This document shows positions 34,831 to 41,298 of a stretch of 64,000 bases of DNA, piece after piece. The stretch's first letter is position 1; every line of letters begins with the position of its first letter. Position numbers and translations under genes: made by a program. The stretch covers positions 1-64,000 of the forward strand of contig NZ_JAGQCU010000006.1 in assembly GCF_024346355.1 (NCBI RefSeq). Direction: 5' to 3'. The notes beneath the pieces were generated by a model, which worked only from the letters and a program-made list of their open reading frames with translations, was not told the origin of the DNA and did not search any database. The stretch comes from Cyanobium sp. ATX 6A2 (lineage in GTDB: Bacteria > Cyanobacteriota > Cyanobacteriia > PCC-6307 > Cyanobiaceae).

Positions 34831-36339
34831 TCATCCCCCCGGCTCCCCTGATGGCGACACAGAGACCATCAGCTGATCGAGTTCCTCGATCAGGGAGGTG
34901 ATGCGGGCACGACTGATCTGACTGAGGTACGTGCTCTTCAGCCCCTCGATCAAGGCGCAGATGAGCTCCTGGGAGCGCTCCAGGGCCGGCCCGGTTTCCA
35001 GGCTCAGGGCCAGTTCATCCCAGAAGCGATCAATGCAGCGCTGCAGCATCTCCAGCTGGGCGTCATCGGTGCGGCCCAGCCGCTTGCCGGTGCTGCGCGA
35101 GAGGTCCAGCAGGCTGTCCACCATGCCCCCCGCCAGCTGGCTGCTGAGGCCGGATTCCAGCTGCAGCAGGGGCTTCAGTTGCCGCAGGGGTGGCGGCACC
35201 ACGGTGCGATCGAGGCTCTGGCGCAGGCTGTAGCCCAGCAGGCTTTGCAGTTCGGGAGCCAGGCGCGGGGCCACCTCCGAGAGCAGCAGCGGCCCCCAGA
35301 TGCGCAGCAGTTCCAGCAGCTGGCGCTCATCCTCGCTGCGGATCACCGCCTGATGGCTGCGCAGGGAGCGGATGCGCTGCGGCCAGCGCGGCGAGCGCAC
35401 CAGGCCCTGCACGCCATCAATCAGCTGCAGGGCCAGCACCTCGAACAGTTCCAGGGCCAGCAGCGCCACCACGCCACGGCTCACCACCGCACGCAGGGGC
35501 TCGAAGTTCACGAGCCGGGAGGTCTGCAGCCGCTCCACCACCGGCACGATCCGCAACCAGCGCCAGAAGGGCAGCAGCAGCGGCAGGTCGATCCAGCGCC
35601 GCAGCAGGGCATCCCGCCAGCCCAGGCCGGGGATGCGGCGGCGCAGCCGCACCACCCGCAGCAGGATGTCGAGGAGGAACACCCACTGGAACAGCAGCAG
35701 ATCGATGCGCCAGGCCTGATTGGTGGGCTGGGCGTTTTCCTCGATCGAGCGCCAGTAATTGGTTTGCACCAGCGGCAGCACCTGATCACGCCAGAAGAGC
35801 CGCTCCTGCTGCCAGGGCCGCTGCTCCAGCCAGGCCGGGCTGAGCAGCTGGGCGGCGGCCTGCTTGGAGGAGTCCTGGTCGGCCCGGTCACGCAGGCGGT
35901 TCTTGATCTTCTCCAGCGTGCCGCTCTGGTCCGACCCCTGGAAGGGATTGGTGTCGATCATCTGGTTCGTGAGCTCCACCTGCTGCTCCAGCAGACGCCG
36001 CTGCTCGGCACTGAACGGAACCGCGGCCCCGGCCAGGGCGGCATCGAGACGCTCGAACTGATCCAGATAGGCCTGGGTCTCCCGGTGGGGCTCGATTCCC
36101 TTGATCGGATCCACCCAGGGAGTGATGTCGGGCAGCACCTGCAGGGGCACGGTGAGCGGCACGCCGGGAATCAGCTGGAGATTGCGCTGCAGCCAGAACG
36201 GCCGCACGGCCACATAGGTGAGATCGAAGGCCACCCACACCAGGTTGAGGCTCGCCCATACCGCCACAAAGCGGCCCCAGCTGCGCTCCAGCCCACTGCG
36301 CGAGGGAGGACGGGGGCGCTGCCAGCGGGGGCGGACCAT
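34831..36339 (-). CDS. cyanobacterial membrane protein of unknown function
   Basis: 502 aa from ATG 36339 (MVRPRWQRPRPPS). One N-terminal helix at about 20-40 (FVAVWASLNLVWVAFDLTYV), a central extracytoplasmic/cytoplasmic part, a second hydrophobic segment near 215-235 (LLLFQWVFLLDILLRVVRL) with an amphipathic neighbour (LLLPFWRWLRIVPVVERL), then a long helical C-terminal domain rich in Glu/Leu/Arg. No family is recognised with certainty; similar proteins occur as conserved hypotheticals in picocyanobacteria. It diverges from lepB with 73 bases between the starts. Confidence 0.6.
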   Translation of the reverse strand: MVRPRWQRPRPPSRSGLERSWGRFVAVWASLNLVWVAFDLTYVAVRPFWLQRNLQLIPGVPLTVPLQVLPDITPWVDPIKGIEPHRETQAYLDQFERLDAALAGAAVPFSAEQRRLLEQQVELTNQMIDTNPFQGSDQSGTLEKIKNRLRDRADQDSSKQAAAQLLSPAWLEQRPWQQERLFWRDQVLPLVQTNYWRSIEENAQPTNQAWRIDLLLFQWVFLLDILLRVVRLRRRIPGLGWRDALLRRWIDLPLLLPFWRWLRIVPVVERLQTSRLVNFEPLRAVVSRGVVALLALELFEVLALQLIDGVQGLVRSPRWPQRIRSLRSHQAVIRSEDERQLLELLRIWGPLLLSEVAPRLAPELQSLLGYSLRQSLDRTVVPPPLRQLKPLLQLESGLSSQLAGGMVDSLLDLSRSTGKRLGRTDDAQLEMLQRCIDRFWDELALSLETGPALERSQELICALIEGLKSTYLSQISRARITSLIEELDQLMVSVSPSGEPGG

Positions 36340-36412
36340 CGGCAGGGGCGTGGTGGAGGCCTGCCTAATCTGCCCTGGCCGCCGTTGCCGGCGGTGGCCC
36401 CTGGAGAAGACC

Positions 36413-37174
36413 GTGCCGTTGCCTGAACCCCATCTGAAGGACTCCGAGCTGGGGCGGGAGCAGGACGCAGCGTCCGCTGCGCCCTCCCACCGGGGCGAGA
36501 GCGCCTGGGGCTTCTGGCGCAGTGTGGTGATCACCCTGGCGGTGGCTCTGGGCATCCGCCATGTGCTGGTGGAGGCCCGCTACATCCCCTCCGGATCCAT
36601 GCTGCCGGCCCTGCAGATCCAGGACCGTCTGCTGGTGGAAAAGCTCACGTACCGGAGACAGCCGCCGCAGCGCGGCGAGATCGTGGTGTTCCGCTCACCC
36701 CATCGCTTCGATCCGGTGCTGGCCGGCAGCAGCGACCAGAACCCGCTGCGCTGTCTGCTGGTGAACCTGCCCGTGGTGGGCAACCTGCCAGGCCTGGCCA
36801 GCCCCGCCTGCGACGCCTACATCAAACGGGTGGTGGCCCTGCCCGGCGAGCGGGTGGTGGTGGATCCCCTCGGCCAGATCAGCATCAATGGCCGCCGGCT
36901 CGATGAGCCCTACGTGCAGAACCTCTGCCCGGTGGACGCCCAGGGGATGGGTCCGTGCCGAACCATCAACGCCGTGGTGCCTCCCGACCACGTGCTGGCC
37001 CTGGGCGACAACCGCGCCAACAGCTGGGACGGGCGCTTCTGGCCAGGAGGCCCATTCATCCCCCGCAAGGAGATCATCGGCCGCGCCTTCTGGCGCTTCT
37101 ACCCCTTCGACCAGGTCGGCAGCCTGGTGCCGATCAGGAGCGAGCCGTCAACCGCCAGCTCGCCGGGTCTGTGA
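36413..37174 (+). CDS. lepB: signal peptidase I
   Basis: Cleaves signal peptides from exported proteins at the outer face of the cytoplasmic or thylakoid membrane. It is 253 aa from GTG 36413 with ggag about 10 bases ahead. One N-terminal helix at about 36-55 (SVVITLAVALGIRHVLVEA) is followed by the catalytic PSGSM with Ser62 and the base Lys138 in YIKRVVALPGE; the GDNRANSWDGR motif completes the fold. Other in-frame starts upstream run through the antisense gene and are rejected. Convergent with the dihydroorotase-like gene, with a 41-base overlap. Confidence 0.95.
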   Translation: MPLPEPHLKDSELGREQDAASAAPSHRGESAWGFWRSVVITLAVALGIRHVLVEARYIPSGSMLPALQIQDRLLVEKLTYRRQPPQRGEIVVFRSPHRFDPVLAGSSDQNPLRCLLVNLPVVGNLPGLASPACDAYIKRVVALPGERVVVDPLGQISINGRRLDEPYVQNLCPVDAQGMGPCRTINAVVPPDHVLALGDNRANSWDGRFWPGGPFIPRKEIIGRAFWRFYPFDQVGSLVPIRSEPSTASSPGL

Positions 37175-38432
37175 GGCCAGTGGCCACCACCGCCCCGCGG
37201 ATGCGCTGACCCAACCGGGGCTGGTTCGCCGCCAGCGACAGCGACGCGGCTCCGCTCCAGCTCCACGCGTAGCCGGGATCGAACAGCAGCCAGCGACGGC
37301 TGCCGGCCTCCAGGCGATCCGGGGGCAGGCCAAGAACGGTCGAGCCCCCCCAGCTGAGCAGCTGCCAGAGCTGCTCAACCCCGCAGCCCTGGCCCTCCAC
37401 CAGCTCCTGCCACAGCAGCGGCAGCACCAGACCGTGACGGGCGCCGTGGCCGGCGAGACCGGGCCGGCGTTGATCCAGGGGCAACAACTGCTCCTCCGCA
37501 TCGAGGGGCAGATGGTGCACGGCCACGGCGCTGATCAGCCCCTCCATCGCCGCCGCCCGCAGGGCCTGTCGGTCGCGGGGGGCCCCCAGGGAGGGCACCA
37601 GGCGCCAGCCCACCTCGGCGGGGGAGAGGCTGCCGCTGTCGGCCACCAGGTGCCACCAGCTCACCGTGCAGGGCAGGGCGGCGGGGCGGGCACGCAGCTG
37701 CTCCACGGCGGCGGCGGTGGAGAGGTTCATCACGGTGAGGCGGCTGTCCGGGCGGGCAGCGGCAAGGGCCAGCAGCGACTGCAGGGGCAGGATCTCGCTG
37801 AGCACCGAATCCGGTGGCCAGCCCGCCCGCAGGGTCTCCACCGCCTCGCGCACAAACCCACCGGCGCAGAGTGCGGCGCTGCGCGGGGGCACCAGCACCG
37901 GCCGATCGGCCAGCTCCCCCAGCAGCAGCCCCCGTTCCAGCAGGGGCAGCGGCGGGGCCTGCTCGCCGGCCGCCACCCCGATCGCCCCTGCCGCCAGCTG
38001 ATCGCGGTGGGGGGCCAGCTCGGCATCGGCGCCCTCCAGGCTGAAGCTGCCCCACAGCACCAGCCGGAGGGGCGCGGGCCAGGTCAGGCCCTGCAGGCGC
38101 TCGGGCCGGTCCCGCCAGGGCCGGGCCCAGGGCAGCAGCGCCACGGTGCCGTAGCCGCCGGCGGCCGCGGCTCGGGCCAGGCTGTCGAGAGTCTCGGCCG
38201 TGCCCGCAAAGGGCTGCTCAAGCACGCTGTGGGGGTCTACCAGAGTGGGGGCGAGCAGCCAGCCATCGGCGGCCAGCGGCTCCAGACCCAGCTCACCGGC
38301 ACGGCGGACGGCCGGCTCACCCCAGGCCTGCAGACGGCCCTCGCCATCGATCAGGGCATCCAGGCGCTGCAGGGCCTCACCAGGACCGGTGAGCAACTGA
38401 ACCTGGCGCAGCCAGAGCGGGGGGGACAGCAC
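37134..38432 (-). CDS. dihydroorotase-like protein lacking the metal ligands
   Basis: About 432 aa from GTG 38432, only four bases after the upstream stop; a GTG at 38474 is open too. The whole fold of PyrC/dihydroorotase type I can be followed, but each metal-binding signature is changed. The DxHxHxR site is DPHSVLEQP, the HCED site is VPPRS, the IQHVST site is VMNLST and the ATDHAPH site is AVHHLPL. It therefore cannot bind zinc in the canonical way and is likely not a dihydroorotase. In some bacteria inactive PyrC-like subunits stabilise aspartate carbamoyltransferase, which is one precedent, but that is inference. The upstream gene in the same direction is the tandem phosphatase. Confidence 0.8.
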   Translation of the reverse strand: MLSPPLWLRQVQLLTGPGEALQRLDALIDGEGRLQAWGEPAVRRAGELGLEPLAADGWLLAPTLVDPHSVLEQPFAGTAETLDSLARAAAAGGYGTVALLPWARPWRDRPERLQGLTWPAPLRLVLWGSFSLEGADAELAPHRDQLAAGAIGVAAGEQAPPLPLLERGLLLGELADRPVLVPPRSAALCAGGFVREAVETLRAGWPPDSVLSEILPLQSLLALAAARPDSRLTVMNLSTAAAVEQLRARPAALPCTVSWWHLVADSGSLSPAEVGWRLVPSLGAPRDRQALRAAAMEGLISAVAVHHLPLDAEEQLLPLDQRRPGLAGHGARHGLVLPLLWQELVEGQGCGVEQLWQLLSWGGSTVLGLPPDRLEAGSRRWLLFDPGYAWSWSGAASLSLAANQPRLGQRIRGAVVATGLTDPASWRLTARS

Positions 38433-38436
38433 CGGC

Positions 38437-39801
38437 CTAGAGGGCTCCGGCGGCGGTGCGGTCGAGCACGCCACCGAGGTGGGAGGTGAGATTCAGGGCC
38501 GCCACCACCGCCGTGCCGGCGGCTCCCTGGGGATAGTCGATCACGGTCACACCGCCATTGCCCTGCTTGATCATCCAGATGTCGGCGGGGGTGAGCCCCA
38601 GCAGGGCACAAAGGATTGTCTTGTTAACGGCGTCGTGGGCCACCACCAGCGCCGTTTCGGCGGCATCGAGGCTGGCCGCGATCGTGCTCCAGGTGGCCAG
38701 GGAGCGCTGCCACACGTCGTGGATGGTCTCCCCCTCGGGCATCTGCACCGTCTGCGGCGCCCGCTTCCAGTCGGCCAGCAGCTGGGGCCAGCCCTCGGCG
38801 ATCTCCTGCTCCAGGCGCCCCTCCCAGAGGCCGTGGCCGATCTCCACCAGGCCGCTGGTGGCGGTGAGCGGCACCCCCGGGTGGGAGGCGAGGATCCGTT
38901 CGGCGGTCTGGCGGGGGCGGGCCATCGAACTGGTGTAGGCGCGATGAATGCTCACCGACGCCAGGAACGAGCCCGCGGCGTCGGCCTGGGCCAGCCCGTT
39001 GGCATTGAGGGGGATGTCGATCTGCCCCTGGAAGCGGCCCTGACGGTTCCAGTCGGTCTCCCCATGGCGCACGAGAAGCAGACGGGCTCCGCCTCCCCGC
39101 GGCGGCAGGGGCTCCCCGAGGTGGGCAGTGCCGTTGAGAGACTCCACCTGCACGGTCGGCTCGGCGCCCGGCCCGCAAGTGAGGTTGAGGACCGAAATCG
39201 AGCCGTTGTCCACCCGCAGCCGCCGGAAGCCGCTGGCGTCGAGACCCAGAAGGGTGAGCATCAGGCAGCGCAGGATCGCGTTGTGGGCCACCACAAGGAC
39301 GCTCTGATCGCCGCCCTCCAGCGCCATCCCGTGGCGCTCCAGCAGCAGGGCGCGGAAGCGCGCCGCCTGGACCATCAGCTCCGGCAGGGGGGCGTAAGTG
39401 CTGCCGTCGCTGCGCCGCAGCTCCAGGGTGTGGGGAGCGGTGCGCCAGACGGCCTCCTGGCTCGGGAAGCGCTCGCGCAGCTCGCGGCGGAGCAGCCCGC
39501 TCCAGGGTTCCAGGTCAATCTCCAGCAGGTCGTCCTCAACCACGGAGCTGAGACCCCGGCCTTGGGCGTTGAGCAGATGGCCAGCCGTGGCGCGGGCCCG
39601 CTGGAGCGGGGAGCTGTAGGCGGCATCAAAGGGCAGATCGGCCAGGGCCGCACCGGCGGCAAGGGCTTGCTGTACGCCCTCCTCGGTGAGTGATGAGAGA
39701 TCGTCGCGGCCTTGAATCCGGTGCTCGACGTTGAAGCTGCTGAGCCCATGGCGGACCAGCACAATCCGGAGGGACACGGACCCAGGGCTGCACCTTGGCA
39801 T
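38437..39801 (-). CDS. tandem histidine-phosphatase (phosphoglycerate mutase-like)
   Basis: 454 aa from ATG 39801, or from a GTG at 39777. Two histidine-phosphatase domains lie in one chain: domain 1 (about 10-215) with VLVRHGLSSFN and VLVVAHN, and domain 2 (about 230-445) with LLVRHGETDWNRQ and ALVVAHDAVN. Both have the RHG active site and the second His, so both look able to act. Two-domain members in cyanobacteria include phosphoserine or phosphoglycerate-type phosphatases, but the substrate is not clear. The larger open frame to 41535 is an antisense artefact. Divergent from the CPBP protease with start codons three bases apart. Confidence 0.85.
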   Translation of the reverse strand: MPRCSPGSVSLRIVLVRHGLSSFNVEHRIQGRDDLSSLTEEGVQQALAAGAALADLPFDAAYSSPLQRARATAGHLLNAQGRGLSSVVEDDLLEIDLEPWSGLLRRELRERFPSQEAVWRTAPHTLELRRSDGSTYAPLPELMVQAARFRALLLERHGMALEGGDQSVLVVAHNAILRCLMLTLLGLDASGFRRLRVDNGSISVLNLTCGPGAEPTVQVESLNGTAHLGEPLPPRGGGARLLLVRHGETDWNRQGRFQGQIDIPLNANGLAQADAAGSFLASVSIHRAYTSSMARPRQTAERILASHPGVPLTATSGLVEIGHGLWEGRLEQEIAEGWPQLLADWKRAPQTVQMPEGETIHDVWQRSLATWSTIAASLDAAETALVVAHDAVNKTILCALLGLTPADIWMIKQGNGGVTVIDYPQGAAGTAVVAALNLTSHLGGVLDRTAAGAL

Positions 39802-39804
39802 CGT

Positions 39805-41298
39805 ATGGGAGCAAGTCTCAAGGGTCCGGCGGGTCCACGGAGCCGTCCGGCAGGGGGGAGAATCCAGGCCATTGCCTCCCTTCCCCCGCTGCGCTTGCCC
39901 CCTTCGACCGCCGCTCCTCCGCGCTGGAAGCAGCTCCTGGCCGTCCTCAGCCTGCTGCTCTGCGGCCTGCTGTGGATCAACGGCCTGCTCCAGAGCCTGG
40001 AGCGCCCCTCGGTGGGCAACGCCCTGGAGCTGCGTCAGCGGCAGCTCCAGGTGCTGGCGGCACCGGCCCTGCCGGAGCGGCTGAAACCACTGCTCGCCGG
40101 GCCCGACAGCCTGGAGCAGCTGACCATCCAGCTGGAGCAGTCCCTGGCTGCCGACCCCGGTCCCGGCAGCCCCGACCAGCTCCTGCAACTGGCCCTGCTG
40201 CAGCTCCGCGGCCAGCAGCCTGAACGCAGCGCCCCCCTGCTGGAGCGGCTGCGCGCCCAGGTGCCCCCCGCGCGGCACGCGCTCGTGGCCATGCTCGAGA
40301 GCGGCCCATTGCCCCTCGCGGCCCAGCCGCCACGAATCGCCGCTCTGACAGACCCCTGGCAGGAGGATCTCAGCCCCCTCACCAGCCAGCTGCTCTGCCA
40401 GGCGCTGGAGCCAGGACGGCCTGACTGCGGCGACCCCCATCGGCAAGGCCGCGCCCTGGCGCGGCTGCTGGCGGTGAGCTGGCTGCCGGGGCTGCTGCTG
40501 CTGCTCGGGCTGGGTCTGCTGCTGCGGCCGGCCTGGCTGCTGATTCGCCACCGCGCCATGGCGACCCCGGCGCTGGTGGGTCCGCCGCTCGATCTTGTGG
40601 ATGTGACCCTGCTGATCGCCGGCGGCTTCGTGGTACTGGGCGAGCTGAGCGTGCCGCTGCTGCTGGCGCCGGCGCTGCGGCCCCTGCTCGCCCCCCTGGA
40701 CGCCACGCCGGTGCGGCAGCAGGGCCTGCAGGTGCTCCTGCTCTACCTGGGGTTGATGGTGCCTCCCCTGCTGATCCTTGCCGCCCAGTTGCGCCCCCTG
40801 GCCAGACAACAACCCGCAAACGGCTGGCTGCAATGGCGCTGGCGACCCGCCGGTTCGGCCAGCACCGCTGCCCTGGGCCATGTGCTGATGGTGCTGCCCC
40901 TGGTGGCCTTCTCGGGCTGGATGGTGAACCGCCTGCTGGGGGATCCGGGGGGCAGCAACCCCCTGCTGGAGCTGGTGCTCACCGCCCGCGACCCGGTTGC
41001 ACTGCTGTGCTTCGGGTTCACCGCGATGGTGCTGGCGCCCCTGTTTGAGGAGACCCTGTTCCGCGGGGTGCTGCTGCCGGCTCTTGGAAGCCGCTGGGGG
41101 GGCACGGCGGGCGTGCTGGTCAGTGCCCTGGTGTTCGGCCTCGCCCATCTGAGCGTCGGGGAACTGCTGCCCCTGGTGGTTCTGGGGGTAGGCCTGGGCT
41201 GGTTGCGGCTGCGCAGCGGGCGGCTGGGGCCCTGCGTGCTGATGCACAGCCTCTGGAACGGCTTCACCTTCACCAATCTGTTGCTGCTGGCGATGTGA
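39805..41298 (+). CDS. CPBP family intramembrane glutamic protease
   Basis: 497 aa from ATG 39805. An N-terminal helix (QLLAVLSLLLCGLLWINGLL, about 45-63), a periplasmic-looking region rich in Leu/Gln, then about eight membrane segments from 230. The CPBP (Abi/CAAX) signature is complete: FEETLFRG with the EExxxR site, FGLAHLS, and HSLWNGFTF near the end. Family members process prenylated or other membrane proteins or confer bacteriocin immunity; the target is unknown. Its start codon lies three bases from the phosphatase start on the opposite strand, so promoters must overlap the coding regions. Conserved in picocyanobacteria by recall. Confidence 0.88.
   Translation: MGASLKGPAGPRSRPAGGRIQAIASLPPLRLPPSTAAPPRWKQLLAVLSLLLCGLLWINGLLQSLERPSVGNALELRQRQLQVLAAPALPERLKPLLAGPDSLEQLTIQLEQSLAADPGPGSPDQLLQLALLQLRGQQPERSAPLLERLRAQVPPARHALVAMLESGPLPLAAQPPRIAALTDPWQEDLSPLTSQLLCQALEPGRPDCGDPHRQGRALARLLAVSWLPGLLLLLGLGLLLRPAWLLIRHRAMATPALVGPPLDLVDVTLLIAGGFVVLGELSVPLLLAPALRPLLAPLDATPVRQQGLQVLLLYLGLMVPPLLILAAQLRPLARQQPANGWLQWRWRPAGSASTAALGHVLMVLPLVAFSGWMVNRLLGDPGGSNPLLELVLTARDPVALLCFGFTAMVLAPLFEETLFRGVLLPALGSRWGGTAGVLVSALVFGLAHLSVGELLPLVVLGVGLGWLRLRSGRLGPCVLMHSLWNGFTFTNLLLLAM

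Follow-up and report, generated by a model that had tools for sequence, protein, structure and literature searches.

Why would a bacterium that has an intact dihydroorotase (DHO) also keep a second, full-length homolog whose metal site is gone? The question is raised by a gene in the window, a stretch of 64,000 nucleotides from Cyanobium sp. ATX 6A2 (contig NZ_JAGQCU010000006.1, positions 1 to 64,000; host genome, 3.0 Mb). Located on the minus strand at 37134–38474, this gene encodes 446 residues from a GTG codon at 38474 or 432 residues from an inner GTG at 38432; the 432-residue form was analyzed, and residue 1 corresponds to the codon at 38432. Directly upstream, on the same strand, is a gene for a tandem two-domain histidine phosphatase (38437–39861, start approximate); lepB, encoding signal peptidase I (36290–37174, plus strand, start approximate), is convergent with the DHO-like gene and overlaps its 3′ end by 41 bases (37134–37174).

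A class I fold without a class I metal site

The best NCBIfam match of the window protein is PRK07369 / NF005614, named dihydroorotase (E 4.5e-71), but the score of 239.9 bits falls below the curated cut-off of 456, so membership by cut-off does not follow; TIGR00857 matches with 115.5 bits (cut-off 279.05), and a Pfam-A search returned no family at E ≤ 1. The best solved relative by sequence is 3gri (E 1.3e-19), a class I DHO. An AlphaFold2 model built from 53 sequences (the window protein and 52 relatives) reached pLDDT 95.5 and pTM 0.94, and structure comparison matches it end to end to 2z00 (Z 46.9, rmsd 2.6, 410 aligned residues) and to 3d6n_A, the DHO of the Aquifex aeolicus DHO-ATC dodecamer, a class A1 assembly (Z 45.3, rmsd 3.1, 410 aligned). 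Full-length homology and predicted fold thus both place the protein in the class I DHO family, and the original prediction that the fold is maintained over some 430 residues is borne out by the model. Fungal pseudo-DHO structures were absent from the best 50 matches listed in each of two structure searches, which has no bearing either way.

What has become of the metal site? Its columns were located by alignment with the DHOs of Aquifex, Staphylococcus aureus and Thermus and are given in Aquifex numbering, with the roles of H61, H63, D153, H180, H232 and D305 as described in PMC3880350. The window protein has H68, V70, A155, P182, N236 and H306 in their places: five of the six ligand positions are replaced (the D153 to Ala column is less certain, next to a one-residue alignment gap), and only the first His is present. 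In the gene, H68-S69-V70 (within DPHSVLEQP; 38223–38231, minus strand) stands for the H61-x-H63 motif, M235-N236-L237 (VMNLST; 37722–37730, minus) brings N236 to the place of H232, and H306-H307 (AVHHLPL; 37512–37517, minus) takes that of D305-H306. At the positions of R65 and N95, which we take to be substrate residues, there are E72 and W102, so that the protein has neither the six ligands nor the R65/N95 pair of an active class I enzyme. The initial claim that all four metal signatures are lost is therefore right for the motifs, since the four peptides it quoted do sit at the metal-site segments, and too strong for the residues, because H68 is still a His at the position of H61.

Loss of H180 and H232 alone would be no proof of inactivity, because the H180A/H232A double mutant of the Aquifex enzyme is active according to PMC3880350. 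Since H63, D153 and D305 are also gone, inactivity of the window protein is very likely, and the reading of the gene as encoding a catalytically dead class I DHO (hereafter, pseudo-DHO) is well supported at the level of sequence.

An old loss, shared across the class

Is the window gene an oddity of one strain? PRK07369 matches are found in 183 of 292 genomes of the phylum; the same class contributes 103 of these (102 over the cut-off) and Cyanobiaceae, a family represented by 36 genomes, contributes 26. All 102 genomes over the cut-off belong to the same class (482–697 bits), and the 25 other matching Cyanobiaceae genomes fall, like the window protein, below it (197–288 bits). The non-matching genomes listed (all but 89) are sorted by relatedness and go directly from Cyanobiaceae to other classes of the phylum, so that no genome of this class from outside Cyanobiaceae seems to be without a match. 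The aligned set comprises 73 Cyanobacteriia members. Of these, 35 are from Cyanobiaceae: the window protein, proteins of 25 genomes and those of nine named relatives (Cyanobium or other cyanobacteria, for the most part MAGs). The remaining 38 were drawn from the 102 over the cut-off, 30 for their top scores and eight by hand.

HxH, H180 and H232 are missing from all 73. What replaces them differs between the two groups. In the 38 non-Cyanobiaceae members, position 61 is Tyr in all 38, 232 is Arg in 37, 153 and 305 are each Asp in 37, and 63 is His in 31. In the 35 Cyanobiaceae members, 61 is His in all 35, 232 is Asn in 34 and 305 is His in 31; positions 63 (Val in 20) and 153 (Ala in 12, Asp in 11) vary. 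With Tyr at 61 in every one of the others, the His of the window protein may have been regained rather than retained. By contrast, all six ligands are kept by the three solved enzymes and by all seven outgroup relatives, taken from the 54 matching genomes of other classes of the phylum and presumably non-photosynthetic. The loss is common to all aligned Cyanobacteriia members and is thus old, not peculiar to the window gene. It also bears on the family name: PRK07369 / NF005614 is a curated “equivalog” called dihydroorotase, yet none of the 38 members aligned, out of 102 over its cut-off, has HxH, H180 or H232, so the name probably overstates the function and is likely to mislead.

Who supplies dihydroorotase activity?

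If the pseudo-DHO is dead, another enzyme must be looked for, as the original prediction had advised. The host genome has a class II PyrC (435.2 bits; cut-off 292.95) whose motifs DDWHVHLR, CKLYP, LIHGE, EHIT and TDSAPH are intact, and a class II PyrC scores over the cut-off in all 36 Cyanobiaceae genomes searched, the motifs having been checked in the host copy. A DHO homolog without metal ligands thus coexists with a separate, apparently intact DHO, which is the pattern of a PyrC′-like pseudo-DHO, and the original assignment to this kind stands, with the ligands lost, the predicted fold kept, the gene under purifying selection (see below) and a class II PyrC elsewhere in the genome.

Outside Cyanobiaceae the second enzyme is usually of another type: of the 38 genomes, 31 carry another class I DHO and six a class II PyrC, in G251 together with a broken class I gene. 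In G245, neither was found in addition to the pseudo-DHO; that genome may encode a DHO of some third kind, have a gap in its assembly or come from an auxotroph. The seven second DHOs inspected (of 31; L180–L183, L205, L211 and L213) have Q-x-H (DPQVHFREP) for HxH and lack the DDG segment but keep the R65, N95, H180, H232 and D305 positions; we assume that these enzymes are active.

Are the pseudo-DHOs of the two groups the same gene? An unrooted tree separates, with support 1.0, the pseudo-DHOs and the seven outgroup enzymes from the second DHOs and the three solved enzymes. The two cyanobacterial pseudo-DHO groups form a joint clade with support of only 0.60, on long branches, and gene order, examined in flanks of 0.5 to 6 kb per locus, makes the better case. 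The histidine phosphatase gene is present in the flanks of 34/34 Cyanobiaceae loci, 26/38 other Cyanobacteriia loci and 0/7 outgroup loci; the corresponding counts for lepB are 34/34, 6/38 and 0/7. The pseudo-DHOs are an orthologous group across Cyanobacteriia, better supported by gene order than by the tree. The linkage of the tandem histidine phosphatase gene to the pseudo-DHO gene recurs across cyanobacteria.

A non-catalytic partner of PyrB?

What could a dead DHO do? The explanation that we favor, at about even confidence and by analogy, is that the pseudo-DHO is a non-catalytic partner of PyrB, the aspartate carbamoyltransferase (ATCase), like PyrC′ of Pseudomonas. On this view the pseudo-DHO would descend from an active class I enzyme that was paired with PyrB, the two genes still being adjacent in some relatives from other classes. 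Catalysis would then have passed to a second DHO, of class II or of a different class I type, and the former subunit would have stayed on as a structural partner of ATCase, forming or stabilizing a PyrB-pseudo-DHO assembly like the class A2 ATCase of Pseudomonas. In at least one streamlined lineage, PyrB would have become independent and the subunit would have been deleted.

We infer the partnership from three lines of evidence. First, PyrI was found in none of the 36 Cyanobiaceae genomes, in a search whose control was positive in 7/14 genomes, including E. coli; these are therefore not class B ATCases. Second, in 4/7 outgroup loci (L074–L077, from another class of the phylum) the gene for the active-looking class I DHO has a PyrB-like ORF next to it, which suggests an ancestral pair. 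Third, there is a precedent: in Pseudomonas aeruginosa, as reported in PMC7053772, the pseudo-DHO is inactive, yet without it the ATCase chain is monomeric and inactive. A loose tie to the pyrimidine pathway comes from gene proximity: in G005, G036 and G060, 0.8–1.5 kb separates the pseudo-DHO gene from that of the second DHO, and in G062 and G197 a DHO gene that is broken or partial lies about 1 kb away. The five genomes belong to five different families.

How close is the parallel? Like the window protein, Pseudomonas PyrC′ is an inactive class I DHO homolog of about 45 kDa, a subunit of class A2 ATCase in a genome that also has a true DHO (PMC7053772). Unlike in Pseudomonas, no pyrB gene adjoins the pseudo-DHO gene in the Cyanobacteriia loci tested (no PyrB-like ORF in flanks of 0.5 to 6 kb), the pseudo-DHO is absent from ten genomes that keep PyrB, and the partnership with PyrB is putative. 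The Aquifex complex shares the fold with the window protein, but its DHO is active and has all six ligands where the window protein keeps only the His at H61. An inactive DHO domain is likewise retained, together with ATCase, in the fungal CAD-like protein Ura2 (PMC7053772, PMC4581275). There, the pseudo-DHO is one domain of a fused multidomain protein; the window gene is free-standing. Among more distant amidohydrolase-fold relatives, Foldseek finds the human CRMP / dihydropyrimidinase-like proteins, which we take to be non-enzymatic; the match is weaker (TM by query 0.70–0.73, 14–15% identity), and they belong to a different branch. PyrB itself points the other way: among solved structures it is closest to the ATCase of B. 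subtilis (166.7 bits), which is a partnerless trimer, with Aquifex narrowly behind (158).

If PyrB and the pseudo-DHO form one assembly, do they evolve together? Branch rates were compared for 21 families in 26 genomes (49 branches), after removal of 4/25 families that did not reach 26 genomes. The pseudo-DHO and PyrB give rho 0.08, rank 55 of 210 pairs, in a set that holds no known interacting pair as a positive control; the rank is 119 by Pearson correlation, and 61 and 114 when the branch of G217, a sister genome that keeps the gene, is left out. The highest partners of the pseudo-DHO are D14549 (0.31), PyrC2 (0.27) and CPBP (0.26), all unremarkable; the family labels in this set are our own, mostly presumed, assignments.

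Another counterpoint is the loss of the gene. Even by a search with a Cyanobiaceae profile, it is missing from 10 of 11 sampled genomes of one genus, g2, with genomes of 1.6–1.7 Mb that we judge to be Prochlorococcus-like. The best residual match in these ten has E 0.0056 over 70 positions, with none in one genome, and the lepB and phosphatase frames are 56–61 bases apart in all ten, which amounts to a clean deletion. All ten keep PyrB and PyrC, and therefore the pseudo-DHO is not indispensable to PyrB everywhere. The idea of a scaffold for ATCase, which the original prediction had offered as one option, thus survives as the best single explanation, favored by the adjacency of PyrB in the outgroup, by the proximity to true DHOs and by the absence of PyrI; against it, or neutral, are the genomes that have lost the gene and kept PyrB, the covariation with PyrB that is not raised, the unexceptional speed-up of PyrB on the loss branch, the lack of a PyrB-like ORF in the Cyanobacteriia loci tested, the resemblance of PyrB to a partnerless trimer, and G245, where no other DHO was found.

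Three further signals were considered and set aside. (i) PyrB evolves faster on the branch of the loss, strikingly so beside five controls (stem 0.274, sister tip 0.101). In a wider set of 46 proteins, one dropped for a short alignment, it ranks 13th of 45 by share against G217 and 6th–7th when scaled to tree length; the ranks become 4th of 21 (share) and 2nd (fraction) when two loss genomes are used. A speed-up that is not exceptional in the wider sets is suggestive at most. (ii) PyrB sites that are near-invariant in genomes with the gene and changed in all ten without it number 15 of 156, against 8 of 135 for PyrC; G217 keeps the gene yet is already changed at 9 of the 15 PyrB sites and 7 of the 8 PyrC sites, and this signal was discarded. 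(iii) Conservation of loop A, a candidate interface signal, is raised in Cyanobiaceae (43/416 shifts as high) and not in other Cyanobacteriia (285/409).

Other possible roles for the pseudo-DHO

Could the protein have been recruited elsewhere? A different partner or role, be it the upstream histidine phosphatase, the true DHO or ligand-sensing regulation through a remodeled pocket, is a serious contender that we nonetheless think less likely than the PyrB partnership. The conserved phosphatase neighbor, the lack of a PyrB neighbor in the Cyanobacteriia loci tested and the flat covariation with PyrB all speak for it. So does the altered pocket of the non-Cyanobiaceae members, where 12 putative pocket positions have a mean conservation percentile of 67 that only 9 of 409 shifted sets match, and where Tyr, Asp, Arg, Asp and His are all but invariant. 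In Cyanobiaceae, however, the same positions are less clearly conserved (48/416 shifted sets as high), not clearly above chance; the pattern could thus accommodate ligand binding, chiefly in members from other families. As for the phosphatase, its gene is kept where the pseudo-DHO gene is lost, and its covariation with the pseudo-DHO is nil (0.02).

The two ideas could also be combined. An ancient, class-wide pseudoenzyme with a site remodeled and not simply lost might be a ligand-sensing regulatory subunit of ATCase, a counterpart of PyrI though unrelated to it; high-light-type Prochlorococcus would have discarded this subunit when its control of pyrimidine synthesis became simpler. This scheme, which we think unlikely, includes a second remodeling in Cyanobiaceae after the Tyr/His/Asp/Arg/Asp pocket of most Cyanobacteriia.

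Might the protein still be an enzyme? A zinc-independent or low-zinc backup DHO, active despite the missing ligands, has a precedent in the third PyrC of Pseudomonas, a paralog without the conserved zinc residues, encoded by a gene predicted to be Zur-regulated, that has DHO activity as described in PMC2770081; the active Aquifex double mutant and the lack of a second DHO in G245 point the same way. The window protein, however, has lost the α-site ligands H63 and D153 as well as D305, R65 and N95, and positions 63, 65, 95 and 153 vary among Cyanobiaceae members, unlike those of a working active site. We consider a backup enzyme quite improbable.

Slightly less probable still is a decaying relic without function. 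The clean deletion in g2 would fit, as would the pace of evolution, about twice that of PyrB (tree length 11.15 vs. 5.63). But the frame is intact, the gene has matches in 103 genomes of the class, and NG86 dN/dS is 0.076–0.217 in seven close pairs of relatives, similar to neighbor genes and somewhat above PyrB (0.046–0.092); by this measure the gene is under purifying selection, and its early description as intact and not decaying agrees with these values. That the ORF is a spurious product of GC-rich DNA, as the long overlapping ORFs on the opposite strand might suggest, is refuted by full-length homology and the confidently predicted fold.

Implications

Pseudo-DHOs are a known kind of protein; the window gene is a further member, shared across a class and labeled as an enzyme, and the literature matches listed include no paper on a cyanobacterial one. 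If the assignment is right, a curated “dihydroorotase” family probably consists of pseudoenzymes in all photosynthetic cyanobacteria, and databases and metabolic models may therefore assign DHO activity twice. If the PyrB partnership that we favor holds too, the ATCase of cyanobacteria may belong to the class A2 type, with two kinds of subunit, and the clean loss in one lineage would be a natural experiment in which PyrB with its presumed partner can be compared with PyrB without it.

The neighboring histidine phosphatase (38437–39861) has NCBIfam matches that span PspA-like phosphoserine phosphatase, alpha-ribazole phosphatase and GpmB.
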